This document shows, one piece after another, positions 1 to 64,000 of a DNA stretch of 64,000 bases (positions are counted from its first letter, which is position 1; every line of letters begins with the position of its first letter). The DNA comes from Solirubrum puertoriconensis (lineage in GTDB: Bacteria; Bacteroidota; Bacteroidia; Cytophagales; Hymenobacteraceae). Under the pieces are notes generated by a model. The model was given only the letters and a program-made list of their open reading frames with translations. It searched no databases and was not told the origin of the DNA. The stretch is from positions 1,054,001 through 1,118,000 of the forward strand of contig NZ_LNAL01000008.1 in NCBI RefSeq assembly GCF_001483135.1, given 5' to 3'. The translations under genes were made by a program, and so were the position numbers.

Positions 1-276
1 TTCGAAACCGCTGAATTGGATGCCCGTCATCTGGTGACACTGCCCGGCATAGAAACAGGTAGCCAAGGCTGGCCGCTAGTCATTCGGGCGGAGCGCATGA
101 CTGGCGGCGTGGTACTCACAGGGACTTACCGCATGGACGGATTAGTTGGTCGGCCCGAGTTTGCCGCCGAATTTTTGGGGTTCGAATGGTCGCCGGCCAA
201 AAGCAGTTTCAGGCAAGTCGAGAAAACAGCTCGCTCGGTCGGCCGCAGTACCATCAAGTACAGCCGACACAAGTAG
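1..276 (+). CDS. C-terminal fragment of an unidentified protein
   Basis: An open frame runs in from the left edge and stops with TAG at 274-276, so this is the last 91 codons of a gene that begins outside the window. The visible part has no motif I recognise. It is mixed alpha/beta in composition with a basic C-terminus (ending SRHK) and no membrane segment. A strong hairpin terminator follows 18 bases downstream, which supports this being a real transcribed gene end. I assign no function. Confidence 0.6.
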   Translation, partial: FETAELDARHLVTLPGIETGSQGWPLVIRAERMTGGVVLTGTYRMDGLVGRPEFAAEFLGFEWSPAKSSFRQVEKTARSVGRSTIKYSRHK

Positions 277-293
277 CGTTTCACGTTTTAGCC

Positions 294-328
294 AAAAGCC
301 CCGGCAGATTTGCTCTGTCGGGGCTTTT
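294..328. terminator. Bidirectional terminator between convergent genes
   Basis: A 15-bp stem (294-308 with 314-328, one G-T pair) and a 5-base loop are flanked by A-run and T-run, so it can end transcription from both sides: the partial gene on the left and the OmpA gene on the right. Confidence 0.85.
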
Positions 329-353
329 GCTTGAATTCAGGTAGGAAAGTGGC

Positions 354-1364
354 CTACTTCGCTGGCGTCGAGTTCGACTCCAGCATCTGAAATAGTTCGT
401 CGAGCTTGGGCGTGAGAATAATCTCGGTGCGGCGGTTCAGGGCCTTGTTCTGGGGCGAGTCGTTTTTGGCTACGGGCACATATTGCGAGCGGCCCGATGC
501 CGTAACGCGCTCGGGCTGCACGCCACCTACCGTAAGCAGGCGCGCTATTTCGGTGGCACGTAGGGCCGAAAGATCCCAGTTGTCGGCCATGCCGGCGGTG
601 CCTTTCAGGATGGGCACATTGTCGGTGTGGCCTTCAACGACCACGTTCACATCGCGCTGATCTTTCAGCACACCGGCTAGTTTGGTAAGGGCCTCCTGGC
701 CTTTCGGGTCGACTTTGGTTGAGCCCGACTTGAATAGCAGTTGCTCCGATAGCGACACGTACACCTTGCCGTCCTTCACTTTCACCTGTAAGTCGCTGGC
801 TTTAAAGGAGAGCAGGGCGTTGCTCACTTTGGCCTTAAGCGCGTTTACGGCGGCATCCTTCTCGGCCAAGGCCTTTTCCAGCTCGGCCAGCTTTGCCTCG
901 CGCGACTTCACATCGGAGGCCAGCTTGTCAATCTCGTTGCGGCTCTTATTCAGGTTGTTGGCTAGGTCGCCCAGCTCGGCCTCGCGGCGGGCTAGGTCTT
1001 GCGCTACTTTTTGGTAATCGGCGTTTTTGTTAGCCAACACCTTCTCGTTGTTCTTCAGCAGCTTGTCGTACGTATCGCTCAGCTCGCGGTACAAGCCCTG
1101 GGTGCGGCGCAAAATGGTGCCGGTTTGGGCCGAGTCGTTCACGAGGCGCTTGTTTTCGAGGCGCAACGCGCTTAGCTCTTCGTTGGCCTTCTTCAGCTCG
1201 GCCACGGCTTCGCGGGCTTGGCGCTCGGCCGATTCGCGGGCTTGTTCGGTGGCTTCGTGGCGGGCCTTCAGGTCGTCAAACTTTTTGGAGGCAACGCAGC
1301 TGGGCAGCGCCGTGCTAGCTGCCAATAGCGCGGCCAGCAGCAGGGGAGAGGTTGACTTCTTCAC
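354..1364 (-). CDS. OmpA/MotB-family peptidoglycan-binding lipoprotein with coiled coil
   Basis: A probable outer-membrane lipoprotein that anchors the envelope to peptidoglycan. A signal peptide (KKSTS, then a Leu/Ala core) ends in the lipobox LPSC. A long, heptad-like, charged coiled coil covers about residues 25-185. The C-terminal OmpA domain (about 205-330) has the hallmark VVVEGHTDN stretch and an NRRTEI end. I place the start at GTG 1364 because it gives a normal signal peptide and lies three bases after a CAATTTTG promoter-like element. ATGs at 1385 and 1406 in the same frame would add an odd N-terminus. It is a single-gene unit ending at a terminator shared with the gene to the left. 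OmpA-domain identity is firm; the start is less so. Confidence 0.88.
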   Translation of the reverse strand: MKKSTSPLLLAALLAASTALPSCVASKKFDDLKARHEATEQARESAERQAREAVAELKKANEELSALRLENKRLVNDSAQTGTILRRTQGLYRELSDTYDKLLKNNEKVLANKNADYQKVAQDLARREAELGDLANNLNKSRNEIDKLASDVKSREAKLAELEKALAEKDAAVNALKAKVSNALLSFKASDLQVKVKDGKVYVSLSEQLLFKSGSTKVDPKGQEALTKLAGVLKDQRDVNVVVEGHTDNVPILKGTAGMADNWDLSALRATEIARLLTVGGVQPERVTASGRSQYVPVAKNDSPQNKALNRRTEIILTPKLDELFQMLESNSTPAK

Positions 1365-1367
1365 AGA

Positions 1368-1375
1368 CAAAATTG
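1368..1375 (-). promoter_or_regulatory. Possible -7 element immediately before the OmpA lipoprotein start
   Basis: On the minus strand this reads CAATTTTG, one base from the Bacteroidota -7 consensus TAnnTTTG, and ends three bases before the proposed GTG. If used, the mRNA would be essentially leaderless. Confidence 0.35.
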
Positions 1376-1593
1376 TGCAAAACATGTCGGCTTTCGGGCC
1401 GAACATATGGCCATGGCAAGGTAGCTTTTTTAGCGTCAGTAAGTCCCAAATAGCACGTGGAATAATGCACCTGGCAAGTGCCTGGGTACAGGCGGGCCCA
1501 CGTACCTAGGGCTGATTTATAGGGTGGTATGTGGTGGTCGATGGGTGCCGAACGTGCGTTAGGTTTTCAGCCGGCCAGAACGGATTCACCCTA

Positions 1594-1601
1594 TATATTT
1601 G
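1594..1601 (+). promoter_or_regulatory. Bacteroidota -7 promoter element for fbaB
   Basis: TATATTTG is an exact match to TAnnTTTG, 45 bases before the fbaB start. I see no convincing -33 TTG at the usual distance. Confidence 0.6.
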
Positions 1602-1646
1602 TGGCATCGTTCTATTTCCCATTCCCACCTTATCACCCCATTTTCA

Positions 1647-2699
1647 ATGGAAACGAGCACCCTTCAGGTAAGCGCCGAAGTTGACGCGCTGCTCCAGCAC
1701 GAGTGTCAGACCATTACCAAGGACCAGATTCACCAGCCTGGCCCCGATTTCATCGACCGCTGCTTTCTGCAGTCCAACCGCTCGCCGCAGGTACTGCGCA
1801 GCCTAGGTCAGCTTTACAACTCGGGCCGCCTAGCAGGTACCGGTTACATGAGCATCCTGCCCGTTGACCAAGGTATTGAGCACACCGCCGGTGCTTCGTT
1901 TGGCCCGAACCCGATGTATTTCGACCCCGAGAACATCATCAAGCTAGCTATTGAAGGTGGCTGCAACGCGGTGGCTACTACCTTCGGCACGTTTGGTACG
2001 GTGGCCCGCAAATACGCCCACAAGATTCCGTTCTTGGTTAAAATCAACCATAACGAGTTGCTGACTTACCCGAACAAGTTCGACCAGATCATGTTCGGCT
2101 CGGTTGAAGAGGCCTGGAACTTAGGTGCCACGGCCGTGGGTGCTACCATCTACTTCGGTTCGGAGGAGTCGAGCCGCCAAATTCAGGAAGTGGCAGCTGC
2201 CTTCGAGCGCGCCCACGAGCTGGGCATGGCTACGGTGCTGTGGTGCTACACCCGCAACAACTCCTTCAAGACTTCGGAGAAGGACTACCACGTGTCGGCC
2301 GACCTCACGGGCCAGGCCAACCACCTAGGCGTAACCATCGGGGCCGACATCATCAAGCAGAAGCTACCCGAAAACAACGGTGGCTTTTCGACGCTGAAGT
2401 TCGGCAAAACGCACAAGGCCATGTACGACACCTTGTCGTCGGAGAACCCCATCGACCTGGCGCGTTACCAGGTGGCCAACTGCTACATGGGCCGCATTGG
2501 CCTCATCAACTCGGGCGGCGAAAGCAAAGGCGCCACCGACCGCGAAGAGGCCATCCGCACGGCTATCATCAACAAGCGCGCCGGCGGCCAAGGCCTGATT
2601 TCGGGCCGCAAGGCCTTCCAGCGTCCGTTTGGCGAAGGCGTCGACCTGCTGAATGCCATTCAGGATGTGTACCTCGACGAGCGCATTACGCTGGCCTAG
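1647..2699 (+). CDS. fbaB: Class I fructose-bisphosphate aldolase (DhnA/FbaB type)
   Basis: Cytoplasmic aldolase of glycolysis and gluconeogenesis: it cleaves fructose 1,6-bisphosphate into dihydroxyacetone phosphate and glyceraldehyde 3-phosphate through a Schiff-base lysine. The 350-residue chain has the family landmarks: [11 protein letters not shown] near residue 60, [10 protein letters not shown], and [10 protein letters not shown], whose lysine is the likely Schiff-base residue, followed by glycine-rich phosphate-binding segments ([19 protein letters not shown]). The start at ATG 1647 is chosen because the in-frame upstream codon GTG 1599 lies inside the promoter element. It is a single-gene unit. 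The stop codon TAG is itself part of a CCTAGG word. This call is very secure. Confidence 0.95.
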
Positions 2700-2813
2700 G
2701 TCGGAAAATTGTTGGTAGTAGCCCGGTGGCACCTGGTGCCGCGCCCGTTGCCAACTTCGCCCGAAGCAGTACCAGATAACCGGGTACTGACCTCTTAATA
2801 CGAACAAAAACCG

Positions 2814-2845
2814 CGGCGCCGTGACGAGAAAAAGTCGCGGCGCCG
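2814..2845. terminator. Strong hairpin between fbaB and accD
   Basis: Two 12-base arms (2814-2825 and 2834-2845, one G-T pair), each containing the self-complementary octamer CGGCGCCG, enclose an 8-base loop. A-run lies before and TAGTTTTG after, so it is a plausible fbaB terminator. The -7 element of accD starts on the very next base. Confidence 0.6.
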
Positions 2846-2853
2846 TAGTTTTG
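2846..2853 (+). promoter_or_regulatory. Bacteroidota -7 promoter element for accD
   Basis: TAGTTTTG matches TAnnTTTG exactly, 41 bases before the accD ATG. It abuts the upstream hairpin. Confidence 0.6.
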
Positions 2854-2894
2854 TCTAAATACTCAGTACCAAGTACCCCATACACCCCGTTCAA

Positions 2895-3770
2895 ATGGCT
2901 TGGTTTAAGCGTCAGGAGAAAGGCATCATCACCCCCACGGAGCAGAAGAAAGAGACCCCCGACGGCCTCTGGTACAAGTGCCCGGAGTGCGGTACCGTGA
3001 GCGACATGGGCGAACATCGTCGGCTCCTGTACACGTGCGCCAAGTGCAACTACCACGACCGAATCGACTCGGCCGAGTACTTTGAGGTGTTGTTCGATAA
3101 CAACCGTTTTGAGGAGCTCGATGCCGATTTGTCGTCGGGCGACCCGTTGCACTTTGTTGATACCAAGCCGTACCCGCAGCGCATCAACTCCACGCAGCGC
3201 GCCACCGGCCTGAAAGACGCCGTGCGTACCGCTCATGGCCAGATCAACGGCCTCGACCTGGTAGTGGCCTGCATGGATTTTAAATTCATCGGCGGCTCGA
3301 TGGGCTCGGTGGTGGGCGAAAAGATTGCCCGTGCCATTGATTACGCCCGAAAAAACCGCATTCCGTTCCTGATGATCAGCAAATCGGGCGGTGCGCGCAT
3401 GATGGAGGCCGGCTATTCGCTGATGCAGATGGCCAAAACCTCGGCTAAGCTGGCGCTGCTGGCCGAGGCCGGTGTGCCCTACATTTCGTTGCTCACCGAC
3501 CCCACCACCGGGGGCGTTACGGCTTCGTACGCCATGCTCGGCGATTTCAACATCTCGGAGCCGGGTGCGCTGATTGGCTTTGCCGGCCCGCGCGTGATCA
3601 AAGAAACAATCGGCAAGGATCTGCCGAAAGGTTTCCAGAGCGCCGAGTTCGTGCTGGAGCACGGTTTCTTGGATTTCATCGTAGATCGTAAGCAACTGAA
3701 GCAGAAGCTCACCGACCTGCTCACCATGTTGCGCCACGCCGAGGTACCCGCCGACGCTACGCGCGCCTAG
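2895..3770 (+). CDS. accD: Acetyl-CoA carboxylase carboxyltransferase subunit beta
   Basis: Beta subunit of the carboxyltransferase that moves the carboxyl group from biotin carboxyl carrier protein to acetyl-CoA, the first committed step of fatty acid synthesis. The 291-residue chain begins with a four-cysteine zinc finger (CPEC at about residue 30, CAKC about 52), then a crotonase-like fold with [29 protein letters not shown] and [11 protein letters not shown], and GFAGPRVI. Length and order fit the family. accA is not adjacent. The TAG stop is part of a CCTAGG word. Confidence 0.97.
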
Positions 3771-3794
3771 GTCGAGTTCGGCACGCTTGTTGGT

Positions 3795-3833
3795 AAACCC
3801 CGTTTGGCTTTCAAATAGAGCCAGGCGGGGTTT
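3795..3833 (+). terminator. Intrinsic terminator after accD
   Basis: 15-base arms 3795-3809 and 3819-3833 (near-perfect) with a GTTT end follow the accD stop by 24 bases. Confidence 0.8.
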
Positions 3834-3993
3834 GCTGCTTTAAACCCATTGTTCGGCCAGACGGGCACCCCACGGAGTAGCAGCATACATTAGCCCGCTT
3901 ATATATTCGCCCGAACATTATCGGGCTAAATACAGTAAGTACCGGCAAAAGACAATCTGGCCACGTCTCTCAACTCTTTCCAAACATACGTTC

Positions 3994-4761
3994 ATGAAGT
4001 CATTCAAATCCCTACTTGCGCTGCTGATGGTATTTACCATGCTGTTCAGCGCGTGTCAATCTTCGCGTCCGGCTGCTGGTGGCAGCACGGGCAGCACCAG
4101 CACTGGCAACGACCTGCCCTCAGGCAATGGCTCGGGCGAGCGTAAAACCGGCATGAGCAAAACGGCTAAAGGCGGCCTTATCGGCGCTGGCGCCGGTGCC
4201 GCCGCTGGGGCTGTGCTGGGCCGCGTAATCGGTGGCAAAAACGGCACGGCTGCTGGCGCCATCATTGGTGCTACCGTGGGTGGTGCTTCGGGCGCTGTTA
4301 TCGGCCGCAAAATGGATAAGCAAGCCGAGGAGTTGCAGCGCGACATGAAGAACGCCCGTGTAGAGCGTGTAGGCGAAGGCATCAAGATTACCTTCGATGC
4401 TGGCATCCTGTTCGACACCAACAAATCGGATTTGCGGGCGGCCTCGGTACAAGAAATCGACAAGATGGCTGAGGTGCTGAAGAAGTACCCCGACACAAAT
4501 GTTATCGTGGAAGGCCACACCGACAACACCGGCTCTGATGCTATCAACCAGCCGCTGTCGGAGCGCCGCGCCCAGGCCGTAGCCAACGAAACCATGAGCA
4601 AAGGCGTAGAGTCGGGCCGCATAACCACCAAGGGCTACGGTTCGTCGCAGCCGGTAGCCGATAACACCACGGCTGAAGGCCGCCAGGCCAACCGCCGCGT
4701 CGAAATTGCCATCTTCGCCAACGAAAAGATGAAGAAAGCTGCTGAGCGCGGCGAGTTGTAA
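3994..4761 (+). CDS. Glycine-zipper OmpA-family lipoprotein
   Basis: Probable outer-membrane lipoprotein with a membrane-associating glycine zipper and a C-terminal peptidoglycan-binding domain. The signal peptide ends in lipobox FSAC (residues about 18-21). A Ser/Gly/Thr-rich spacer follows, then the zipper (about residues 55-105; GGLIGAGAGAAAGAVLG and similar repeats), then an OmpA domain (about 125-250; VIVEGHTDNTGSD, NRRVEIAIF). The downstream gene at 5673 is a close paralogue without the lipobox, and the small gene between them carries only the zipper, so the three look like products of local duplication. It has its own terminator. A weak TATATTCG at 3902-3909 may be the -7 element. Confidence 0.9.
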   Translation: MKSFKSLLALLMVFTMLFSACQSSRPAAGGSTGSTSTGNDLPSGNGSGERKTGMSKTAKGGLIGAGAGAAAGAVLGRVIGGKNGTAAGAIIGATVGGASGAVIGRKMDKQAEELQRDMKNARVERVGEGIKITFDAGILFDTNKSDLRAASVQEIDKMAEVLKKYPDTNVIVEGHTDNTGSDAINQPLSERRAQAVANETMSKGVESGRITTKGYGSSQPVADNTTAEGRQANRRVEIAIFANEKMKKAAERGEL

Positions 4762-4791
4762 GCCAGCTGCCCGCCAAGCATTCTGCTGACC

Positions 4792-4821
4792 AAGAAGGCC
4801 GCACCTAGGTGCGGCCTTCTT
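4792..4821. terminator. Perfect 30-bp palindromic terminator with CCTAGG at its centre
   Basis: The two 15-base halves are exact reverse complements with no spacer, centred on CCTAGG, and are followed by a T-run. The hairpin must open its central CTAG to form a loop. Confidence 0.9.
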
Positions 4822-4962
4822 TTTTGCATACGGTGTTCATACTGGGCAACATACCTGCACAATAGTGTAACCCAGGGTATGGGATTTTTCGTTTAGAGTC
4901 CTATAAAAACCAGATATGTCAATGCTCTAACCTGAGCGACGTGTCTCTAAAACTGAACGACC

Positions 4963-5265
4963 ATGAAACTTCATAAAGCTATTGTTGCCGCCGTGCTATC
5001 GGTTGCGCTGCTGGGTGGTACTACCGAAATGGCCCAGGCCCAAGATTCTAAACCTCGGAAAGGCTGGAGCAAAAAAGGCAAAGGTGCCGCTGTAGGTGCT
5101 GGTGCAGGTGCCCTAACGGGTGCCGTAATTGCTGGTAAAGGCGACCGTGCTACGGGTGCCATCGTTGGCGGCGCTGCCGGTGCCGTGGGCGGTGCGCTAA
5201 TCGGCCGCAAGAAGGACAAGAAGAAAGACCCGCAGCGCTACGAACAGTACACACGCAAAGACTAA
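4963..5265 (+). CDS. Small secreted glycine-zipper protein
   Basis: A 100-residue protein with a cleavable signal peptide (MKLHK, hydrophobic core, cleavage after AQAQ near residue 27), then a glycine zipper (about 42-83) with GAAVGAGAGALTGAV and GGAAGAVGGALIG repeats, ending in a highly charged KKDKKKDPQRYEQY tail. It resembles the YMGG/glycine-zipper proteins of Bacteroidota. It carries the same zipper as its two neighbours but no OmpA domain. A periplasmic or outer-membrane-associated role is inferred; the molecular function is unknown. Confidence 0.8.
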   Translation: MKLHKAIVAAVLSVALLGGTTEMAQAQDSKPRKGWSKKGKGAAVGAGAGALTGAVIAGKGDRATGAIVGGAAGAVGGALIGRKKDKKKDPQRYEQYTRKD

Positions 5266-5299
5266 CCCAAGGGCCCTTGCCCTAGGTCCTCATCCGCTG

Positions 5300-5332
5300 A
5301 AAAGGCCACCCTGCAAGCAGGGTGGCCTTTTT
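5300..5332 (+). terminator. Intrinsic terminator after the small glycine-zipper gene
   Basis: 15-base arms (AAAAGGCCACCCTGC and its complement) with a two-base centre and a T-tract, 35 bases after the stop. Confidence 0.85.
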
Positions 5333-5619
5333 GATTGAGATTTAGCAGCAACTTTTAGCTTAGCGGCGCGTTCAAGCCCTCAGCTCGGCAGTAAAACAGC
5401 GCAGGAACCTGGCAAAAACCGATGGCCAACCAACAGTTTGCCTCGTAAACTTTGGTTGGAGAATGCTGCCCAGTAAATCAACGCAGTAGCAATAAGTAAA
5501 AATAAAGAGCTGAAATTCAGGCGTTGCAAATGAATATTCGCCTGATTGCCTGTTTTTGGCAAGGAGGTTGCCTTATGCTAAACAGGCCAGGAGGTAAGCT
5601 CCAAAAGCTTGCTCCGCAT
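5333..5619. other. Gene-free spacer
   Basis: Less GC-rich than the flanks and with short frames only. I see no conserved protein, tRNA or repeat. A TAAACTTTG string near 5454 resembles a promoter element with one extra base. Confidence 0.5.
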
Positions 5620-5627
5620 TAAGTTTG
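5620..5627 (+). promoter_or_regulatory. Bacteroidota -7 promoter element
   Basis: TAAGTTTG is an exact TAnnTTTG match 45 bases before the OmpA gene start at 5673. Confidence 0.55.
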
Positions 5628-5672
5628 CAAGCTGGCATACATTCAGAAACTCAACAACCCAATTCCATACCC

Positions 5673-6380
5673 ATGAACAAGCTCCGTTCGACGTTTGCCT
5701 TTTTGCTGGCATTCGTACTGCTGATGACCTCCACGCTCTCGCAGGCGCAAACCACGACTACCAAAAAACCGATGAGCAAAACCGCTAAAGGTGCCATCAT
5801 CGGGGGCTTGGGTGGTGCTGCCGGTGGTGCAGTACTGGGCCGCGTAATTGGCGGTAAAAAAGGTACCGCTGCTGGTGCTGTAATTGGTGCTGCCGTAGGT
5901 GGCGGCGCTGGTGCCCTGATCGGTCGTCGTATGGATAAGCAAGCCGAAGAGCTGCGCCGCGACATGGCCGGTGCCAAGGTTGAGCGCGTAGGCGAAGGCA
6001 TCAAGATTACCTTCGACTCGGGTATCCTGTTCGCTAAGAACTCGTCGACCCTGACCTCGACTGCTCAGAACAACATCCAAACGCTGGCTGAAACTCTGAA
6101 GAAGTACGGCGACACGAACGTACTGATCGAAGGCCACACCGACAACACCGGTTCGGATGCCATCAACGACCCGCTGTCGGTGCGCCGCGCCCAAGCTGTT
6201 GCCAACTACGCCATGAACCAAGGCGTAGAGTCGTCGCGCTTCGAGGTGAAAGGCTACGGCTCGAAGCAGCCGATTGCTGACAACACCACCGAAGACGGCC
6301 GTCGTCAGAACCGCCGCGTGGAAGTTGCCATCTACGCCAACGAAAAGCTGAAGAAAGCTGCCGAAAAAGGCCAGATCTAA
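5673..6380 (+). CDS. Glycine-zipper OmpA-family secreted protein
   Basis: A 235-residue paralogue of the lipoprotein at 3994. The signal peptide is type I (cleavage expected after LSQAQ, about residue 26) and there is no lipobox cysteine, so the two paralogues probably differ in how they are held at the outer membrane. The glycine zipper covers about 38-88 and the OmpA domain about 105-230 (VLIEGHTDNTGSD, NRRVEVAIY). Zipper and OmpA domain match the paralogue almost residue for residue, while the first 30 residues do not. The start at ATG 5673 gives a proper signal peptide and lies downstream of the -7 element. It likely contacts peptidoglycan through the OmpA domain. Confidence 0.9.
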   Translation: MNKLRSTFAFLLAFVLLMTSTLSQAQTTTTKKPMSKTAKGAIIGGLGGAAGGAVLGRVIGGKKGTAAGAVIGAAVGGGAGALIGRRMDKQAEELRRDMAGAKVERVGEGIKITFDSGILFAKNSSTLTSTAQNNIQTLAETLKKYGDTNVLIEGHTDNTGSDAINDPLSVRRAQAVANYAMNQGVESSRFEVKGYGSKQPIADNTTEDGRRQNRRVEVAIYANEKLKKAAEKGQI

Positions 6381-6413
6381 GCCGGGCCGGCCATAGCCGC
6401 AGTCCCGTTGCTC

Positions 6414-6448
6414 ATCCGGCGGTTTCCCTAGGTGGGAAGCCGCCGGAT
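6414..6448 (+). terminator. Intrinsic terminator with CCTAGG in the loop
   Basis: 15-base arms 6414-6428 and 6434-6448 (one G-T pair), followed by six T. CCTAGG lies at the tip. Confidence 0.88.
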
Positions 6449-6523
6449 TTTTTGTGCCCTGAGCGGCAGCTGTCAGGTCGGCTTCATCAAAAGATAATGC
6501 AGCGCAGCCGGCACGTGCGCTTC

Positions 6524-6531
6524 TATCTTTA
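6524..6531 (+). promoter_or_regulatory. -7 element five bases before a start codon
   Basis: TATCTTTA (one mismatch to TAnnTTTG) ends five bases before the ATG at 6537, predicting a leaderless or nearly leaderless transcript. Confidence 0.45.
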
Positions 6532-6536
6532 CCCGC

Positions 6537-9455: not shown

Positions 9456-9459
9456 CCCT

Positions 9460-56196: not shown

Positions 56197-56496
56197 GTGA
56201 AGCACGTCATCCATCAGCTCAACAAAGCCTTCGACCACCGCGTGCGGCTGGGCGTTATGGCCGTGCTCATGGCCAACGACGAGGTGAGCTTTAATGAGTT
56301 AAAAGAAACCCTCGACCTCACCGATGGCAACCTCGCCAGCCACGCCGCCGCCCTCGAGAAAGCCGGCTATGTGCAGGTAAACAAGCAGTTCGTTGGCAAA
56401 AAGCCCAACACCACTTTCACGGCTACCAAAGAAGGCCGCCAAGCCTTTCAAGAGCATCTTGATACGCTTGAAAAGCTGCTGAAAGGGGCGGAGTAA
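56197..56496 (+). CDS. Winged-helix transcriptional regulator (PF13601-like)
   Basis: 99 residues, one winged helix: HQLNKAFDHRVRLGVMAVLMA, SFNELKETLDLTDGNLASHAAALEKAGYVQV (recognition helix and following helix), FVGKKPNTTFTATKEGRQAFQEHL (wing and C-terminal helix). This matches the small single-domain regulators that sit beside membrane protein genes in Bacteroidota. It starts with GTG 56197. An inverted repeat (56515-56531) lies between it and the DUF4173 gene and is a candidate binding site. Confidence 0.9.
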   Translation: MKHVIHQLNKAFDHRVRLGVMAVLMANDEVSFNELKETLDLTDGNLASHAAALEKAGYVQVNKQFVGKKPNTTFTATKEGRQAFQEHLDTLEKLLKGAE

Positions 56497-56514
56497 ATTT
56501 TTTTTTGGACTTAA

Positions 56515-56531
56515 ACTTTGAAACACAAAGT
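56515..56531. promoter_or_regulatory. Candidate operator of the winged-helix regulator
   Basis: ACTTTG, five bases, CAAAGT: an exact 6-base inverted repeat in an AT-rich spacer, overlapping a TTAAACTTTG promoter-like string and ending 13 bases before the DUF4173 start. Confidence 0.45.
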
Positions 56532-56544
56532 ACTTTAAAACATC

Positions 56545-58194
56545 ATGAATGTACTTCCTTTGTTTTCAACTGCTACAGCCCGAAGCACTGCCAAGCAGCC
56601 CCACGCGTCTGCTTGGTATCCTGTAACGCTAGTGCTCAATACTACCCAAAAATGGCTTTTGCCGGTAGGGCTGGTGTTGTTTGATGTATTGTTCTGGGAG
56701 CAGCACATCGGCCTCAACTTGGCGCTGTACACGCTAATGGCTGTAGCCGTACTGCTGGCCAGTAGGCCGCAAAGCGCGTGGCGTTCCGGGTACTTTCGGC
56801 TGGTATTGTTGGGCACTGTGGTATCGGCAGGGGCGGTGGCCTGGTACGGCTCGGGGGCGGCGGCACTTGCCTGCACGGCTTCGTTGCTGATGTTGTGGGG
56901 CTACGCCAACCAGCCGCCGCTAAAGCAGGCGGGCTTGGCTTTGCTTACGGGCCTAGGTGCTGCAGCCGAGGTATTAGCTGGCTTGCCCAACCTGCTGGTA
57001 CGCGCACTGCCCAGCCGGCAAACCAAAGTAGGCCGCTTGGGCTGGTACGTGCGGCTGCTGGCAATGCCACTGCTGGTGCTGGGTATTTTTCATGTGCTCT
57101 TTGCTTTGGCAAACCCGCGCTACCGCACGCTGGCCGATAAGGTGTGGGCAAGCGTTGCGGCGTGGCTGGCGAAGTATTTCGAGCTGTTGTCGTGGGGGCA
57201 CTTGCTGTTTTTGCTGGTGGGGCTGGCCAGCACAGCCGTAATGTTGTTGCGGGTGCCGCTGCCCGGCTTGGCGCAGTGGGAGGCGCGTTTTGCCGAGGTG
57301 GTGCTGCGCCGCCGCGACGGGGTGGCTTCGTTTGCGGTGCGCCACCCCGATTTTCGCCGGCGCACGTTCCGCTCATCCGATTTACGAAAGGAGTACCTAG
57401 GTGCTTTGGCCGTGTTTGGGTTGGTTAACCTGTTGTTGCTGGCCGTAAATGCCATCGATATTCAGTGGTTGTGGTTTGGGTTTAGCCCCGAGCCCAGCTT
57501 CAACCTAGCGCAGTTTGTACACGAGGGTACCTACGTGCTCATCTTCAGCATTTTGCTGGCCATGGGCATTGTGCTGTGGTTTTTCCGCCGCAACCTCAAC
57601 TTTTATCAGCCGGGCTTGCCCTTGCTGCGCTGGGGTGCTACGGTGTGGGTGGTGCAAAATGCAATACTGGCGGTGTCGGTGGGGCTGCGCAACTACTACT
57701 ACATCTCGCACATGGGCTTGGCTTACAAGCGCATTGGGGTGTGCTTTTTCCTGCTGCTTACACTGTTTGGCCTGGTCACCATCTTGCTGAAAATCTGGCA
57801 GCGGCGCTCGGCATTTGCATTGGTGCGCCTGAATAGCGTAGCGGTCTATCTGGTGCTACTGTCCCTGGCATTGGGCAACTGGGAAATCTGGATTGCGCGC
57901 TACAACCTTACTTCGGGGTTCCGGCAAATCGATTACGGTTTTCTGCTGAACATGCCCGGCCGCGTGCTGCTCGAACTCGTGCGGCACCGCGCTGCTCTGG
58001 CAAGCACGCTCAGCATAACCACGGAGAAGACTTACAGCAGCTACGGCACGCAAACAATAAAAGCCGACGCGGCCCAACGCATGCTGGATACACGCATAGC
58101 CAACTGGCGTGCTTACTACCAAGCCACGGCCAGCTGGCAGGATTGGACTTACGCCGATTGGCAGGCTTACCGTCAGCTCAGCCAGCGCCGCTAA
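56545..58194 (+). CDS. DUF4173 multi-pass membrane protein
   Basis: 549 residues with about 12 hydrophobic helices through about residue 450 (VGLVLFDVLFWEQHIGLNLALYTLM, LLVLGIFHVLFALANPRY, ALAVFGLVNLLLLAVNAIDIQWLWFGF, YYYISHMGLAYKRIGVCFFLLL). It fits DUF4173, whose function is unknown, and ends in a soluble helical tail (LDTRIANWRAYYQATASWQDWTYADW). It follows a winged-helix regulator and a six-helix membrane protein, an association seen in other Bacteroidota, and is likely controlled by that regulator. Confidence 0.85.
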   Translation: MNVLPLFSTATARSTAKQPHASAWYPVTLVLNTTQKWLLPVGLVLFDVLFWEQHIGLNLALYTLMAVAVLLASRPQSAWRSGYFRLVLLGTVVSAGAVAWYGSGAAALACTASLLMLWGYANQPPLKQAGLALLTGLGAAAEVLAGLPNLLVRALPSRQTKVGRLGWYVRLLAMPLLVLGIFHVLFALANPRYRTLADKVWASVAAWLAKYFELLSWGHLLFLLVGLASTAVMLLRVPLPGLAQWEARFAEVVLRRRDGVASFAVRHPDFRRRTFRSSDLRKEYLGALAVFGLVNLLLLAVNAIDIQWLWFGFSPEPSFNLAQFVHEGTYVLIFSILLAMGIVLWFFRRNLNFYQPGLPLLRWGATVWVVQNAILAVSVGLRNYYYISHMGLAYKRIGVCFFLLLTLFGLVTILLKIWQRRSAFALVRLNSVAVYLVLLSLALGNWEIWIARYNLTSGFRQIDYGFLLNMPGRVLLELVRHRAALASTLSITTEKTYSSYGTQTIKADAAQRMLDTRIANWRAYYQATASWQDWTYADWQAYRQLSQRR

Positions 58195-58205
58195 CTCCTG
58201 CGGCC

Positions 58206-58236
58206 CTAGGTGCTGCCGTGCTTGTGCGGCACCTAG
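58206..58236. terminator. Hairpin after the DUF4173 gene
   Basis: Perfect 8-base arms CTAGGTGC/GCACCTAG around a 15-base loop; no T-run, so weak as a terminator. Confidence 0.4.
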
Positions 58237-58305
58237 AGCCAGCTAAGCAACGATTTATCACCCCTAAAACCCGCGTGCTCTGCTGCTGAGCGCGCACCCA
58301 CCGCC

Positions 58306-59076
58306 ATGACGTTTGCTGACTGGGCCGAGTACTTCCGCGCCAACCAAAACCACCTGGCCGAGTTGAGTTGGGACGATACCCACCGCCTCACCGACCGCGA
58401 ACGACGCGCGGCAGGCCGCTCGCTGCAGCATTTTCAGCGCGGCGAAAGTTCGGAGGGGCATCACCTCTACCACCACGCCCAAGCCAGCCACGACGCCGAT
58501 TATCTCGCGGCTATGCGCTTGTTTATTGCCGAAGAGCAAGGGCATGCGCAAGTGCTAGGTCGTTTTTTGGATATGCAAGGCCTGCCCCGCCTGCGCGCTT
58601 GCTTTACCGATGATGTGTTTCGTTGGCTGCGGCGCTTCAGCGGTTGGGAGCACACCATCCGGTTGCTGCTCACGGCCGAGATTATTGCCGCGGTGTACTA
58701 CCGGGCTTTGTACTACGCTACCTACTCGGGGCTGCTGCAGCAAATTTGCCTGCGCATCATGCGCGATGAGCAACAACACATTGCCTTTCAGTGCAGTACC
58801 CTGCGCTATCTGCGCCCGCGCCGTAGCGGCCTCGGGTGGTGGCTAAGCCAGCAGTTGCACTGTGCGCTGATGATTGGGACCACGGCGGTAGTGTGGGTAT
58901 GCTACAACCGTACATTGTGGGCTGGCGGCATGGGGCCCGTAGGCTTTGCAGCCAGCGTGGCGCAGGAGTGGGGTCGGGCCCAAGCATTGCTGCGCGCTTC
59001 GGCTGCCGCCGTTACGGGGCCCCGGAATGGATTTGCACACCTAGGGGGCACCAACCTGCCCGCGCTTGGGCAATGA
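58306..59076 (+). CDS. Ferritin-like di-iron protein
   Basis: 256 residues, helical. Two E-x-x-H pairs are visible: EEQGHAQVLG (about 76-85) and RDEQQHIAFQ (about 150-159), with a further Glu in LLLTAEIIAAVYY (about 124) and in RGESSEGHH (about 48-52), giving the carboxylate/histidine set of a four-helix di-iron protein. The C-terminal third has hydrophobic helices. It could be an oxygenase or desaturase-like enzyme; the substrate is unknown. Its stop overlaps the next start as ATGA, so the two genes are translationally coupled. Confidence 0.8.
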   Translation: MTFADWAEYFRANQNHLAELSWDDTHRLTDRERRAAGRSLQHFQRGESSEGHHLYHHAQASHDADYLAAMRLFIAEEQGHAQVLGRFLDMQGLPRLRACFTDDVFRWLRRFSGWEHTIRLLLTAEIIAAVYYRALYYATYSGLLQQICLRIMRDEQQHIAFQCSTLRYLRPRRSGLGWWLSQQLHCALMIGTTAVVWVCYNRTLWAGGMGPVGFAASVAQEWGRAQALLRASAAAVTGPRNGFAHLGGTNLPALGQ

Positions 59077-59420
59077 TTAGCTTGTTGGTGAAAGGCGTAA
59101 AAGCAGCGCCACCAACTATGTGGTGGGGTTTGCTCGCGTCAGTATTCGCTCTGCTAAACTTAGTAGGGCAGGAGGAGCTATGGCCTAATACGCCCGCTGC
59201 CGTGCCGGCTTGCCAGGCGCTGCTTGCAATAGGAGCAGGTTGCATGGTGGCTTCGGCGCCAATTACGGCGTGGCGGTGGGCCGCTGAGTTGCCTGGCTCG
59301 GTGCTGCCGGCCACTATGCGGGTGCTGGCAATAGTGGCAGGGGTAGTTGCCTTTCCGGTAATAACAGCACTGCTGTGCGGCTTTGTTTGGTGTTGCGTTG
59401 AGGCAATTAGCCGTTATTGA
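59073..59420 (+). CDS. Small membrane protein coupled to the ferritin-like gene
   Basis: 115 residues starting at ATG 59073, four bases before the previous stop is complete. Three hydrophobic helices are seen: about 16-32 (MWWGLLASVFALLNLVG), 46-68 (ACQALLAIGAGCMVASAPITA) and 85-108 (VLAIVAGVVAFPVITALLCGF). No motif is recognised. The overlap suggests fixed stoichiometry with, or membrane tethering of, the ferritin-like protein. A longer frame starting at 58836 is not a gene: it runs inside the ferritin-like gene. Confidence 0.75.
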   Translation: MISLLVKGVKAAPPTMWWGLLASVFALLNLVGQEELWPNTPAAVPACQALLAIGAGCMVASAPITAWRWAAELPGSVLPATMRVLAIVAGVVAFPVITALLCGFVWCCVEAISRY

Positions 59421-59443
59421 ACCTTCGGCCGGCTGGCAACTGG

Positions 59444-59451
59444 TATATTTG
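59444..59451 (+). promoter_or_regulatory. Bacteroidota -7 element for the penicillin-binding protein gene
   Basis: TATATTTG, exact consensus, 49 bases before ATG 59501. Confidence 0.6.
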
Positions 59452-59500
59452 TATTTCAGCCGGAGCGTTTACGTGCCAGCTCCCCGGTTTTTTCTGCCCG

Positions 59501-61894
59501 ATGCCCTCGACTGAAGCTCAGCATATTAACGCCGCTACTTCTCCCAAACCCCGGCCTAAGCGTTCTTGGCCCAATCGCCTTTCGCGAATGGCATGGGCTG
59601 CGTTTGCGGCCGCGGCTGGTTTTTTCCTGCTGCTGCCCATTCTGGTAGCTTCCAACTTCTTGTTCCTATTTGGCAAATCGCCGAGCCTGGAGGAACTGGA
59701 AGACCCCAAAGTGGAGCAACCCTCCGAGGTGTATACTTCCGATGGAGTGCTGCTGGGCCGCTACTACCGCGAAAACCGTTACCCCGTGCCGCTCGATAGC
59801 ATGTCGCCGTGGCTGGTAAAGGCGCTGGTCGCTACCGAAGACATTCGCTATCAGGAGCACTCCGGCATCGATCCGCAGGCACTGGTGGGCTCGGTGGTGG
59901 CAGCGGCGCGCGGGCAAAAGCGCGGGGGCTCTACCATCACGCAGCAACTGGCCAAAAACCTCTACAAAACCCGCCGCGGCGAGCAGGGCCTCCTAGGTCA
60001 TGTGCCCGTGGTGAGCACCATCATAGCCAAATTAAAGGAGTGGCTAACGGCCGTAGAGCTGGAGCGCCGCTACACCAAGGATGAAATCCTGCGCATGTAC
60101 CTCAACACCGTCGACTACGGCTCGCAGTCGTACGGCATTAAGGTGGCAGCCAAAACCTTCTTCAGCACCACGCCCGATAGTCTCCGGCCCGAGCAGGCGG
60201 CTGTGTTGGTAGGAGCACTTAACAACCCTACCGCGTTCAATGCCCGCTTTCACCCCGAGGCTGCTACGCGGCGGCGCAACCTGGTGCTGGAGCGCATGGG
60301 GCAAGCAGGCGTGCTGCCGGCCGAGCAGGTGAAATTGCTGCAAAGCCAGCCCATCGTGCTGAACTACCAAGTGGAAAAGCACGTCGATGGCCCTGAGAAT
60401 TATTTCCGTTCGGCCATCAGCCAATTCGTAAACGATTGGTGCGAGAAGAACGGCTACGACATGTACCGCGACGGGCTGCGCATCTACACCACCATCGATT
60501 CGCGCATGCAGGAGCACGCCGAAGAGGCCGTGCAGAAGCGGATGAAAACGCTGCAACGCACGTTCGATAACTTCTGGCGCAACCGCGGCAAAAATCCGTG
60601 GGTGGACGAAGACGGTAATGAAATTCCGAACTTCATCGAGACGCAGATTAAGCGCACGGAGCTGTACAAGGAGTTGGCTGCGCGCTACAAAGGTAACCCT
60701 GCCGGCCTCGATTCGGCCCTGAACACCAAGCGCCCCATGAAGGTATTTACCTGGAAGGGCGACGGTGACACTACGTTGCTGCTTTCGCCGCTCGATTCGC
60801 TGGCGTACTACAAGCACTTCCTACACGCCGGCATGATGTCGATGGATCCGTACACCGGGCACATCAAAGCATGGGTGGGTGGTCTGAATTATCGATTCTT
60901 CCAGTACGACCACGTGAAGCAGGGCAAGCGCCAAGCCGGCTCTACCTTCAAGCCGTTCGTGTACCTCACTGCCATAGACAAAGGCTACGCGCCCTGCGAC
61001 CGGATTCGGGACGAACGCGTGACCATAAACTACGTGGAGAACGGCAAGCCCATGGAGTGGAAGCCCGACAACGTAACGCGCGAGTACACCGGCATCAACA
61101 TGACGCTGCGCCATGCCATGGCCCGCTCGGTAAACTCCGTAACGGCCCAGCTAACCGAGCGCGTGGGCTGGAACGAGGTAGTCAAGTATGCCAACAAAGT
61201 AGGCATTCGGAGCAAGCTGCTGGGCGTGCCGAGCATCGGCCTGGGTTCGGCCGGCGACGTGAGCGTGTACGAAATGGTGAATGCCTACAGCACGTTCGTG
61301 AACGGTGGCTTCCGGCCCGAGCCGCTTATTGTAACGCGCATTGAAGACCGCAACGGCAACGTTATTAAACAGTTCGATCCGCAGCAGAAGCGCGTGATTC
61401 CGGCCGAAACCGCTTGGCTGATGGTATACATGCTGCGCGGCGGTATGGAGGAGCCAGGCGGCACCTCGCAAGGCCTGTGGGACTACGACCTCTTTAAGAA
61501 AAACAACCAGATCGGCGGCAAAACCGGCACCACCTCCAACTACTCTGATGGTTGGTACATGGGCATCACAAAGGACCTAGTAACCGGGGTATGGGTTGGT
61601 GGCGAAGACCGTTCCATTCACTTCTTCCGCTCGGAGCAGGGCGAAGGCGGCCGCATGGCACTACCAATCTTCGGTATGTACATGGAGCGTGTCTATAAGG
61701 ACAAGGAATTGGGCATCACGCCCGGGCCGTTCCCGAAGTACCCCGGCAAAATCAACCGGAAGTACATCTGCTATTCCGAAGACTCACGCCCGCGCCGTAA
61801 GAAAGTAGAAGTGGACTCGATTGTGGTAGATAACCTCCTCGATCGTATTAACGAAGGAACTATCGAAGTGCCCGACAGCCTGAAGGCGCAATAG
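59501..61894 (+). CDS. mrcA: Class A penicillin-binding protein (PBP1A-type)
   Basis: 797-residue bifunctional peptidoglycan synthase, anchored by one N-terminal helix (about 32-54). The GT51 glycosyltransferase has ATEDIRYQEHSGIDPQAL (catalytic Glu), GGSTITQQLAKNLYK and ELERRYTKDEILRMYLNTVDYG. The transpeptidase has AGSTFKPFVYLTAI (SxxK, about 481-484), ARSVNSVTAQL (SxN) and GGKTGTTSNYSDGWY (KTGT, about 674). Start codon ATG 59501 gives the usual short cytoplasmic tail. Single-gene unit, convergent with a frameshifted gene. Confidence 0.94.
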   Translation: MPSTEAQHINAATSPKPRPKRSWPNRLSRMAWAAFAAAAGFFLLLPILVASNFLFLFGKSPSLEELEDPKVEQPSEVYTSDGVLLGRYYRENRYPVPLDSMSPWLVKALVATEDIRYQEHSGIDPQALVGSVVAAARGQKRGGSTITQQLAKNLYKTRRGEQGLLGHVPVVSTIIAKLKEWLTAVELERRYTKDEILRMYLNTVDYGSQSYGIKVAAKTFFSTTPDSLRPEQAAVLVGALNNPTAFNARFHPEAATRRRNLVLERMGQAGVLPAEQVKLLQSQPIVLNYQVEKHVDGPENYFRSAISQFVNDWCEKNGYDMYRDGLRIYTTIDSRMQEHAEEAVQKRMKTLQRTFDNFWRNRGKNPWVDEDGNEIPNFIETQIKRTELYKELAARYKGNPAGLDSALNTKRPMKVFTWKGDGDTTLLLSPLDSLAYYKHFLHAGMMSMDPYTGHIKAWVGGLNYRFFQYDHVKQGKRQAGSTFKPFVYLTAIDKGYAPCDRIRDERVTINYVENGKPMEWKPDNVTREYTGINMTLRHAMARSVNSVTAQLTERVGWNEVVKYANKVGIRSKLLGVPSIGLGSAGDVSVYEMVNAYSTFVNGGFRPEPLIVTRIEDRNGNVIKQFDPQQKRVIPAETAWLMVYMLRGGMEEPGGTSQGLWDYDLFKKNNQIGGKTGTTSNYSDGWYMGITKDLVTGVWVGGEDRSIHFFRSEQGEGGRMALPIFGMYMERVYKDKELGITPGPFPKYPGKINRKYICYSEDSRPRRKKVEVDSIVVDNLLDRINEGTIEVPDSLKAQ

Positions 61895-61895
61895 C

Positions 61896-63142
61896 TTAGG
61901 CTAGCTGTTGGCTTCCGGCGCTAGGTCCATTGCGCCACAGCCAAAACAACACACCTAGGAGCATTGCGGCGCCTGCCAACGAGTACGCTTGAAACTCAAG
62001 GGGCCAGCCCGAAGGAGAAATCAACGGGGTATGTGGTTGCCAAGAGTTACTCCAGGCAATAAAGGCATCGGCAATTGGCAGCGTACCAAACAAGTAGCAC
62101 TTTTGCCCCCGGCTTGCCCAAGGTATTCCGAAGGCCTCGATGCTATTACGCAGGCGAACGGCCAAAAGCGTATCGCCATATTGTTCCGCCGCCCGACGTC
62201 CTACAATCGAAGCAGCGCCTCCGATACCCACACAACAGGGCCGGAGTCGATGTCGCTTGCGCCGTCAACGCCGTGCGGATGCTCTCGAAACCCTGGCAAA
62301 CCCAACCGCTCATCAGCAAAGTGCTGTTTATACAGCATGTAATGCGGCCGGGCATACGCCGGATCAATCTCGTAGAGCATGCTTAGTAATAAGCTTTGCG
62401 AAGAGCCACGGGCACTTTCAAGCACTTTGCCCGACTGGGCTTCTACCGAGTGTGGAATCATCCCGCGCATATCAGTGTGAGTGGCTACCCGTTGTAGCCA
62501 AACTTGCAGCAACTCTTGGTATAGGGGAGTGAACACCCGATCGTGCGTGGCTAACGCTGCGGCGCATACTGCTGCATCGGCTGGCCAAGCACCTCTGGCG
62601 TAGGACTCCGGAAAAGGTGTGCCTGCATCCGCAAGTACGGCGGCAATTTGCTGGCATGTGCGCCGAAACAACTCCACATCGCCAGGCCTACGCTTAGCCG
62701 CTGGCTGACTCAGCAGCAACTTACCTAGGGAGTAACCCAACCAACCGTTGTAAAAAGCGCCATGTGGCAGCGGCAGCGTGGCATCAAACACCTGCTGGCC
62801 AGCAGGCGAAGCAATTTCCTTCACTGCCCAACTACTTTCGGCGGTTGCTTCTTGGTGCAACATTGTTTGTGGAGAAGCGGCGGCGGCTACCTCACTCCAA
62901 CAAAGGCTGTAAAAGGCGTTCAGGAATACATGTCCTTCGGGATATATTTCTTGCATGTCATGTGCAGCACCGGCATGCAACTGTGCTTTCAAATGGCGCA
63001 GTTGAGCTAGCAAATCAGCATTCATGGAGTTCGTTCCACCATCTGTGTTTGGCTGATGATACAGCCGAACATTGAGGGTGATTATGTACAGAAGTATGCT
63101 CCCTAACAACAAGCTGGCTGTTAGCCGTAATAGCTTTATCAT
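61896..63142 (-). pseudogene. Frameshifted gene for a membrane-anchored helical protein
   Basis: Two overlapping frames read as one protein. The first (63142 to 62201) ends ...DIDSGPVVW then shifts to an unrelated tail; the second (to 61896) continues GIGGAASIVGRRAAEQYGDTLL. Adding one base at the CCC run 62227-62229 (a GGG run on the coding strand) joins them into about 414 residues. N-terminal helix at about 5-25 (LTASLLLGSILLYIITL), a long helical body (VFLNAFYSLCWSEVAA, LLLSMLYEIDPAYARPHYMLYK), and a C-terminal helix (SLAGAAMLLGVLFWLW). The body resembles (alpha/alpha)6-type toroid proteins, but I do not firmly recognise it. It may be a real null allele or a sequencing error. Confidence 0.7.
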
Positions 63143-63186
63143 GATGATTGTATCTGTTAAGCAAACCAGCTAATAAGTAAATATGG

Positions 63187-63230
63187 AAACAGCAGGGCCC
63201 GCATATGAAGGTATGCGGGCCCTGCTGTTT
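63187..63230. terminator. Bidirectional terminator
   Basis: Exact 19-base arms 63187-63205 and 63212-63230 with a six-base loop and AAA/TTT ends. It terminates the TIGR01777 gene. Confidence 0.9.
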
Positions 63231-63259
63231 GGTATGCTTGTTAAAAACAAATAGCTCAG

Positions 63260-64000
63260 CTACTCTTCTTCACGTTGGTAGAAGGACTCCAACGCTTCGC
63301 GTAAGTCGGGGTGCTCGAACCGGAAACCTTGCTCCAGCACTTTTTGTGCACTAACGCGCTGCGAGGCCAGTACTATCTCGCTCATTTCGCCCATAAGCAA
63401 CTTCAGGCCAAACTCTGGCACTTTGGGTAATACCAGCGGGCGGTGAAGTACTTCGGCCAGCGTAGAAGTAAACTCTTTATTAGTGACAGGGTGCGGCGAC
63501 ACCGCGTTGTATGTACCCTGCCACTCGGGCTCTTCCATCATCTGGATAAGCAAGCGGCAAAGGTCGTCGATGTGCACCCACGACATGTACTGGCGTCCGC
63601 TACCTAGGGCCGCACCAGCCATCAGCTTTACCGGACGGGCAATGCTGGGCAGTGCGCCGCCTTCGTCGCTGAGCACAATACCGATGCGGGTAATCACAGT
63701 ACGAACGCCTAGGTTTTGCACCTGCTGCGCAGCACGCTCCCACTGTGTAGCCACGTCGGCCAAGAAATCATCGGCCGGGGCAGGAGGGGTATCCTCGGTT
63801 AACACTCGGTCGTCGGCGTCGCCGTAGATGCCGATAGCCGAAGCCGAGATGAATGCTTTCACGTGGTGCGGCCGTTCGCGCAACTCGCGCGCGAGCAGGT
63901 TAGTGCCTCCCACGCGGCTCGACATGATTTCGTGCTTCCGCTCCTCCGACCATTTTTCATCGGAAACGCTGGCGCCAGCGAGGTTCACAATAAAATCGGC
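63260..64000 (-). CDS. TIGR01777-family epimerase (partial, N-terminus outside the window)
   Basis: The visible 246 residues are the C-terminal five-sixths of an extended short-chain dehydrogenase of the YfcH/TIGR01777 type. DFIVNLAGASVSDEKWSEERK, FISASAIGIYGD (catalytic region), TRIGIVLSDEGGAL, YMSWVHIDDLCRLL, GTYNAVSPHPVTNKEF, and the C-terminal DUF1731 segment VLASQRVSAQKVLEQGFRFEHPDLREAL are all in place. The Rossmann glycine motif lies beyond the edge. The frame is open to base 64000, so the GTG at 63988 is not the start. The substrate is unknown. Confidence 0.92.
   Translation of the reverse strand, partial: ADFIVNLAGASVSDEKWSEERKHEIMSSRVGGTNLLARELRERPHHVKAFISASAIGIYGDADDRVLTEDTPPAPADDFLADVATQWERAAQQVQNLGVRTVITRIGIVLSDEGGALPSIARPVKLMAGAALGSGRQYMSWVHIDDLCRLLIQMMEEPEWQGTYNAVSPHPVTNKEFTSTLAEVLHRPLVLPKVPEFGLKLLMGEMSEIVLASQRVSAQKVLEQGFRFEHPDLREALESFYQREEE

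Follow-up and report, generated by a model that had tools for sequence, protein, structure and literature searches.

The stretch of DNA analysed here, referred to throughout as the window, comprises 64,000 bases (C8:1054001-1118000 of the genome designated G000, whose assembly consists of 8 contigs), and its host is a Hymenobacteraceae-like member of the Bacteroidota. Genes located within the window include dnaE, rho (48297..50507, + strand), polX and one for a class I fructose-bisphosphate (FBP) aldolase, and a further window protein carries a Por secretion (type IX) tail; Hymenobacter is among the best relatives as judged by the Rho protein, and the best DNA matches, as well as synteny, also point to Hymenobacter. 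The subject of the present analysis is the hexamer CCTAGG, which is present in 93 exact copies across the window (span 1505..63713, no strand assigned; first copy at 1505, last at 63708-63713), with a mean gap of 676 bp. This count, for which all positions were listed, agrees with the approximately 93 sites that had been counted by eye in an earlier, sequence-only reading of the window, and 14 of the 15 coordinates given there are exact, the remaining one (19308) requiring correction to 19307.

Excess and origin of the CCTAGG copies

The sequence-only reading had assumed a random expectation of near 20 copies; Markov models of the window (one strand) yield 20.2 copies at order 0 and 13.4, 11.3 and 21.6 copies at orders 1, 2 and 3, respectively. 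The order-4 expectation is considerably higher (78.9), because most of the CCTAG and CTAGG 5-mers of the window sit inside CCTAGG itself, and the maximal-order Markov model was discarded as a null for its circularity. When the synonymous codons of the 46 genes called in the window were shuffled (300 shuffles), 4.43 +/- 1.84 copies were obtained, with a maximum of 10, compared to the 51 observed. The excess is not confined to the window: the complete genome harbors 6212 copies in 4.80 Mb (1293 per Mb), compared to 136 copies of the reversed word GGATCC, and orthologous stretches of three word-poor relatives, placed by means of the rho gene, contain 7 copies of CCTAGG in 240 kb. The over-representation asserted in the sequence-only reading is thus confirmed.

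The shorter word CTAG is not enriched in the window (172 copies compared to 160 expected from its own composition; observed-to-expected ratio [O/E] of 1.07), but it is enriched relative to low relatives, in which its O/E is 0.23 to 0.48. The nine neighbor words which differ from CCTAGG by one step have an O/E of 0.41 to 1.06 in the CCTAGG-rich genomes. Among palindromic hexamers in 80 kb from each of the low genomes G001, G003 and G004, no word enriched in the manner of CCTAGG was found; the enriched hexamers are A+T-rich words with counts of 3 to 7 (O/E 2 to 7.5), AGTACT (16 copies; O/E 2.2 to 2.4 in G001 and G004) and TGCGCA (63 to 67 copies; O/E 1.8 to 2.1 in G003 and G004).

Within the genus of the window (g1; 8 genomes), CCTAGG is abundant in G000 (6212 copies), G005 (5678) and G006 (5325), in contrast to 123 to 249 copies in the other five members. 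Across the 204 genomes of the family, 9 (hereafter high genomes) contain 5325 to 8806 copies, 4 (middle genomes) contain 1209 to 2331, and 191 contain fewer than 900, the word being spaced at approximately one per 770 bases in the high genomes. In the order (391 genomes), none of the 300 genomes outside the family exceeds 1349 copies, and the CCTAGG density around rho in 80 named Bacteroidota loci (each up to 22 kb) never exceeds 0.24 per kb. The top counts outside the family are those of G242 and G317 (family f9, genus g39), with 1349 and 1138 copies in 4.0 and 3.4 Mb, respectively, and these genomes may represent a weaker case of the same phenomenon.

Comparison of aligned positions, from which sites that were gapped or could not be aligned were excluded, shows that copies amenable to alignment originated through base substitutions, mostly in words one or two bases away. 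Where the alignment is ungapped, none of the window copies is present in any of the three low relatives (0/46, 0/44 and 0/47), in which the counterparts are one or two bases removed from CCTAGG in 31, 32 and 33 of these cases, respectively; the commonest counterparts are CCTGGG and CCTCGG, whose leucine codons are synonymous with CTA. Of the high relatives, G005 shares 57 of 77 window copies and G006 shares 45 of 76, compared to 8 of 56 and 9 of 58 for other NCTAGN words. Furthermore, G000 and G005 retain CCTAGG better than they retain other words: of the copies common to two of the three high genomes, 7 of 41 are changed in the third when this is G000 and, likewise, 7 of 41 when it is G005, compared to 27 to 28% of other 6-mers. 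The same measure for G006 amounts to 18 of 52 copies, compared to 23% of its other 6-mers; the force acting on the word may have weakened in this genome, with the word perhaps now eroding, a reading based on few sites (18).

Further words also deviate from expectation. CGATCG (0 to 7 copies compared to 28 to 41 expected) and TCGCGA (1 to 3 compared to 21 to 28) are depleted in all six genomes sampled in the genus of the window (G000, G005, G006, G001, G003 and G004), in which GATC has an O/E of 0.39 to 0.47. GGATCC is present in 0 to 10 copies in many genomes of genus g5 and in more than 100 copies in many others, a pattern resembling restriction avoidance.

The seven-base unit, its dialects and its setting

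The unit under maintenance is a heptamer, NCCTAGG, read on either strand, of which only the core is palindromic; in G000, it takes the form ACCTAGG. Of 282 core sites of G000, 238 have an A before or a T after the core on exactly one side, 14 on both sides and 30 on neither. If the flanks were independent, 63 sites with both would be expected; the symmetric form, ACCTAGGT, accounts for 14 of the 282. The flank preferences proposed in the sequence-only reading (A or C before the core, T or G after it) are real, yet are better described by the single rule of an A before or a T after, on one side only. Its suggestion of a resemblance to the highly iterated palindrome HIP1 of cyanobacteria holds in part: the counts, codon use and conservation concur with a genome-wide word subject to a force, but the unit is a heptamer rather than a palindrome. 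Beyond ACCTAGG, flanking signal is limited to a G or C directly after the word and, at the next position, a weak preference for C.

The imprint of the heptamer on codon choice is pronounced. In the G000 sample, CTA constitutes 72% of leucine CTN codons when these stand within C|CTN|GG, compared to 7 to 12% in other contexts, and AGG constitutes 14% of arginine codons after CCN, compared to 2% elsewhere, in line with the earlier impression that both codons are rare outside the word. The called genes of this sample contain 220 copies, of which 197 are read in the CTA frame and 23 in the CCT AGG frame. Copies within open reading frames (ORFs) are exemplified by those at 7778..7783, in ORF 6537-7958 (+), and at 14453..14458, in ORF 13133-15352 (+), the latter having earlier been read as Pro-Arg. 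Across genes of G000, G005 and G006, CTA occupies 274 of 327 C|CTN|GG contexts that have an A or T flank but 29 of the 118 that lack one, its share of CTN codons being 6.6% elsewhere. Moreover, CTA is used in 63 of 78 ACCTNGGC contexts compared to 5 of 46 GCCTNGGC contexts, a contrast which disfavors a simple influence of context on mutation. The glycine codon which follows is GGC, GGG, GGT or GGA in 63, 40, 13 and 4 cases, respectively, after xAC CTA, but GGT in 90 of 104 cases after xCC CTA; one flank, therefore, suffices. The synonymous leucine positions eligible for the word carry it in 82 to 89% of cases in G000 (173/194) and G005 (56/68), and less often in G006 (43/63). Many rare CTA, AGG and GGT codons of the high genomes thus have a cause at the level of DNA, not of translation.

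A tree of 30 genomes based on a 1.1-kb segment from the 3' part of rho distributes the high genomes across three supported groups: G000, G005 and G006; G070, G076 and G158; and G109, G125 and G140. The third of these also contains the low genome G083, at a fork whose branching order the tree leaves open, so that this group may represent one or two events. The middle genomes G080, G082, G172 and G164 group with G098 (876 copies). This patchy distribution may reflect separate gains or, alternatively, an old presence that was lost elsewhere.

Clades differ in the first base of NCCTAGG but not in its core. In G109, 32 of 35 CCCTNGGG contexts are converted to the word, compared to 2 of 19 ACCTNGGC contexts, while either A or C before the core is accepted in G125. 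In G070, conversion is seen in 53 of 56 contexts with a T after the word and in 7 of 16 without, and the symmetric octamer is common (55/109). The sample of G140, a single 102-kb contig of lower density (35 sites in 60 kb), adds little. Conversion is weak in the middle genomes G082 and G172 (21/72 compared to 13% elsewhere), in which G is the commonest base before the core and GCCTAGGC contexts are converted in 11 of 22 and 7 of 25 cases. A separate observation concerns AGGCCT, which ranks first among palindromic hexamers in G082 (19 copies compared to 10 expected) and G172 (27 compared to 11) and third in G048 (15 compared to 9); in G082 and G172, its excess accompanies the weak GCCTAGGC dialect.

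The word is denser outside than inside called genes. As the gene calls are crude (longest ORFs with a high G+C content at third codon positions), part of the DNA designated as outside genes is coding and the outside densities are approximate; per kb, these are 3.2 outside compared to 1.1 inside for G000 and G005 combined, 2.9 and 1.2 for G109, 2.3 and 1.3 for G125, 2.0 and 1.1 for G070, and 1.0 and 1.0 for G158. Within the window, an uncontrolled count places 6 of the 93 sites in five hairpins identified by script, one of which holds an inverted pair. These comprise a perfect 15-bp inverted repeat followed by a T-run and thus resembling a terminator (4792..4821), a hairpin with one copy in each arm (17635..17670; copies at 17643 and 17657), a terminator-like 22-bp inverted repeat (19454..19497), a hairpin with a copy at 24681 in its loop region (24669..24702) and an 18-bp inverted repeat with a copy at 52788 at its tip (52769..52820), none being assigned to a strand. 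In the hairpins at 4792-4821 and 19454-19497, ACCTAGGT forms the exact center, such that stem and tip constitute one perfect inverted repeat. A further copy (6427..6432), which is intergenic and follows ORF 5625-6380, was seen by eye to cap an imperfect hairpin rich in G+C and was not reported by the script. An Rfam search of the window produced no match, nor did PADLOC for the one (unrelated) window protein submitted to it.

Certain replicons and islands are poor in the word. Contig C4 of G000 contains 2 copies in 12.5 kb, contigs C2 to C4 of G005 contain 0 or 1 per stretch, C3 of G006 contains 4 in 20 kb, and the stretch C8:700001-720000 of G000 also contains 4 in 20 kb. The 259-kb contig C5 of G000 is a mosaic, with 9 copies in its first 160 kb, 54 in the next 80 kb and none in the last 19 kb. 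Such paucity of the word in plasmid-like contigs and islands suggests that new DNA gains the word slowly, or never does so outside the chromosome, and word density could, as the C5 mosaic illustrates, act as a clock for imported DNA.

Reach of the word and candidate mechanisms

The influence of neighboring copies was assessed in 763 kb of G005 and G000, a set in which the window and orthologous G005 stretches overlap, so that some sites were counted twice. Eligible positions carry the word in 82 to 88% of cases when the nearest copy lies 75 to 1600 bp away, and in 18 of 30 cases when it lies within 50 bp, compared to 547 of 651 otherwise (p = 0.0019). With distance measured to the nearest heptamer and flanked positions scored for CTA, the corresponding fractions are 35/55 (64%) below 75 bp, 214/260 at 75 to 300 bp and 316/366 at greater distances, whereas the five sets of control words show no drop below 75 bp (81 to 88%). 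In genus g1 without the overlapping orthologue, the word is carried at 35/52 positions when the neighbor lies within 80 bp and at 475/562 when it lies further away. Four genomes of the two other clades, when pooled, yield 7 of 19 below 75 bp compared to 245 of 296 (p = 2.5e-5), being individually 0/9 in G109, 4/7 in G125 and 3/3 in G070, with no case in G158. When all clades are binned together, 44 of 74 positions carry the word below 80 bp, a fraction of 0.76 to 0.78 at 80 to 150 bp and of 0.81 to 0.87 beyond. A second copy within approximately 75 bp is thus partly redundant, with hardly any effect beyond approximately 100 bp.

The word is favored at several bases at once and from different precursors, for which recognition of the whole word is needed; a protein is inferred on this basis and, as the redundancy ends at approximately 100 bp, one which acts locally. 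We consider it quite plausible, if somewhat short of probable, that the CCTAGG excess represents the core of the seven-base word ACCTAGG, the target of a putative sequence-specific protein on double-stranded DNA. Copies made by mutation would be kept owing to a slight benefit of bound sites or, alternatively, protein-guided short-patch repair would retain the word-bearing strand; in either case, action would be local and per site, and its long repetition would turn most eligible positions into the word. An altered contact of the protein with the first base would give rise to the clade dialects, and loss of the protein would lead to erosion, possibly ongoing in G006. More tentatively, we propose a form of genome writing which is independent of methylation, in which a putative duplex-DNA protein reading NCCTAGG, through short-patch repair or a local structural benefit and with a reach of approximately 75 to 100 bp, may have altered synonymous positions by the thousand, being active in three or more clades of a single family (by separate gains, or as an old system lost elsewhere), its recognition base changing by clade.

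Several points weigh against this proposal. No protein that reads the word has been found, its binding being deduced from sequence, and selection for bound sites and biased repair give an identical sequence pattern. A clade-specific DNA-uptake receptor explains the dialects, the lack of polarity and the extragenic excess equally well, and polarity was assessed by contig strand only, with no replication origin mapped. The neighbor effect is uneven, as the 40- to 60-bp bin of g1 stands at 11 of 13, and the pooled effect in the other clades is driven by G109 and G125, to the exclusion of G070. The word-poor plasmid-like contigs and islands fit repair acting on all DNA only if these elements are recent, and the relaxation presumed in G006 rests on its 18 sites. 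Finally, MT-A70-type families and other DNA modifications lie outside the methyltransferase (MTase) search described below, in which PF00145 and PF01555 were scanned in the genus only.

The main rival to a locally acting protein is an uptake-sequence drive, in which NCCTAGG would be the DNA-uptake signal of naturally competent Hymenobacteraceae and word-bearing fragments would be imported and recombined more often, thereby spreading the copies, an explanation which we regard as unlikely but not negligible. The dialects surrounding a constant core resemble those described for the DNA uptake sequence (DUS) in PMC3630211, and similar traits of uptake sequences are described in PMC1939737 and PMC1626085. 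The absence of orientation bias (228 compared to 227 copies, and 255 compared to 283), the higher density outside called genes, the copies in terminator-like hairpins, the gaps, which are slightly more even than random (coefficient of variation [CV] of 0.88), and the lack of the word in plasmid-like contigs and islands are all in keeping with such a drive. However, the word is 7 bp long, as opposed to the DUS 10-mers and the 9-bp core of the uptake signal sequence (USS), and the uptake of kilobase fragments should presumably produce redundancy over kilobases, not merely 75 to 100 bp. Furthermore, a crude scan for sequence patterns in 480 kb from G005 detected no PilB/PilT-like or prepilin-like ORF, a result which, as no dedicated competence-gene search was performed, is no proof of absence.

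HIP-like upkeep, in which an orphan MTase would mark CCTAGG and methyl-directed repair would keep new sites, is rather improbable. It would accord with the statement in PMC4390886 that cyanobacterial genomes with highly over-represented sequences all have a putative fitting MTase, and with the density of 1293 per Mb, which falls within the 500 to 2500 per Mb given there. Five Pfam families were searched (PF00145 and PF01555 in the genus only; PF02086, PF07669 and PF02384 also beyond it; 20 genomes), and no METHYLTRANSFERASE of the main kinds seems to account for the word. Specifically, none of the five families is matched in all of G000, G005 and G006, others (e.g., MT-A70) lying outside the search, and the methylation mark offered as a cause in the sequence-only reading thus finds no backing within this scope. 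In the genus, PF00145 (C5-MTases) has no match in G000 or G005, and PF01555 is matched once in G000 but not in G005. All nine high genomes lack a PF02086 match. PF07669 and PF02384 have none in G000, whereas G005 possesses a single match to PF02384 and, below the cut-off, one to PF07669. The sole PF01555 enzyme of G000 (an N6/N4 MTase) is located on the 12.5-kb contig C4, together with a Rep3 initiator and a TraD-like protein, and adjoins a SmaI-family type II nuclease (C4 5493-7271); part of this contig matches Hymenobacter plasmids at approximately 82%. SmaI cuts CCCGGG, and this MTase/nuclease pair is, therefore, probably unrelated to the CCTAGG word. The presence of the same core in three separate clades also argues against HIP-like upkeep, as does the disparity between the range of approximately 1000 nucleotides (nt) of the model, as outlined in PMC4390886, and the observed redundancy at approximately 100 bp. 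Similarly, the model stops at one site per kb, whereas approximately 85% of eligible positions carry the word whatever lies 100 to 1600 bp away.

A signal of the Chi, KOPS or spacing type, read by a machine moving along the chromosome, is very improbable. The word is indeed short, dense, genome-wide and non-palindromic, but the orientation counts given above (p = 0.24 for 255 compared to 283), obtained by contig strand with the origin unmapped, reveal no strand bias, and dependence on neighbors at the kilobase scale is slight. The gaps are close to random, with a CV of 0.81 to 0.91 in four single sets and of 0.86 and 0.88 in further sets, and even spacing was consequently rejected as a driving principle; nor was an effect of gene position seen (0.66 to 0.69). 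The sequence-only reading had named chromosome organization as a possible cause and strand bias as a check, and neither even spacing nor strand polarity emerges from the data; of the other causes it had listed, a repair bias is still plausible, as is the local binding of a protein. Finally, an artefact of composition, or a point-mutation bias that depends on context and involves no recognition of the word, to which the circular order-4 expectation might seem to lend support, is scarcely credible, being refuted by the flank rule (5/46 GCCTNGGC compared to 63/78 ACCTNGGC contexts) and opposed by the synonymous shuffle (4.4 compared to 51) and the O/E of the nine neighbor words.

Comparison with known systems

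The reason for which certain bacterial genomes are filled with a single short word is a matter of debate, and the model outlined in PMC4390886 rests on methylation. The present data provide a strong case in another phylum in which the methylation model meets trouble, and the existence of close relatives which have, lack or are maybe losing the word, together with its dialects and its reach of approximately 75 to 100 bp, renders the question testable. Among the best matches of a literature search (titles and abstract starts of open-licence PMC papers), no report of a CCTAGG word in Bacteroidota was found, and in the parts of PMC10269773 and PMC7988955 that matched, HIPs or CCTAGG appear only in reference lists.

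The hexamer CCTAGG is also the target of the AvrII, BlnI and XmaJI restriction-modification systems. Sites of restriction systems are expected to be avoided, whereas the word is here spread, and no fitting MTase of the five families was found in G000. The enzymes are named in PMC1939737, in which GCCTAGGC is listed as rare in one genome. Chi (GCTGGTGG) is likewise a short, non-palindromic and over-represented word. In contrast to NCCTAGG, which lacks polarity as judged by contig strand with the origin unmapped, Chi has strand polarity.

HIP1 was described in 1995. It and the alternate HIPs of cyanobacteria, as detailed in PMC4390886 (Elhai 2015), comprise GCGATCGC, GGCGCC, rCCGGy and GCsGC; the methyl-directed repair model presented there operates over approximately 1000 nt, ceasing at a density of one site per kb, and some HIP1 genomes without a CGATCG enzyme are also named. 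The word described here shares with HIPs its genome-wide occurrence at approximately one copy per kb, a density within the 500 to 2500 per Mb range, its patchiness among relatives and its presence both within and between genes. It differs in its Bacteroidota (not cyanobacterial) host, in being a heptamer with an end base that varies by clade, in the lack of a shared MTase in the five main families searched, others being unsearched, and in its reach of approximately 75 to 100 bp. As the word is not palindromic in G000 and no shared MTase was found among those five families, it falls outside the definition of a HIP.

With the DUS of Neisseriaceae (PMC3630211) and the USS of Pasteurellaceae (PMC1626085), the word shares its non-palindromic nature, its lack of polarity or orientation bias and its dialects, which follow phylogeny around a fixed core; like them, it is commoner outside genes (save in G158), is present in some terminator-like hairpins and is missing from plasmid-like DNA. 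It differs in being shorter, in its palindromic core and in a redundancy limited to tens of bp, and any link to competence is here hypothetical. By its mode of working, therefore, the word stands between HIP1 and the uptake sequences.

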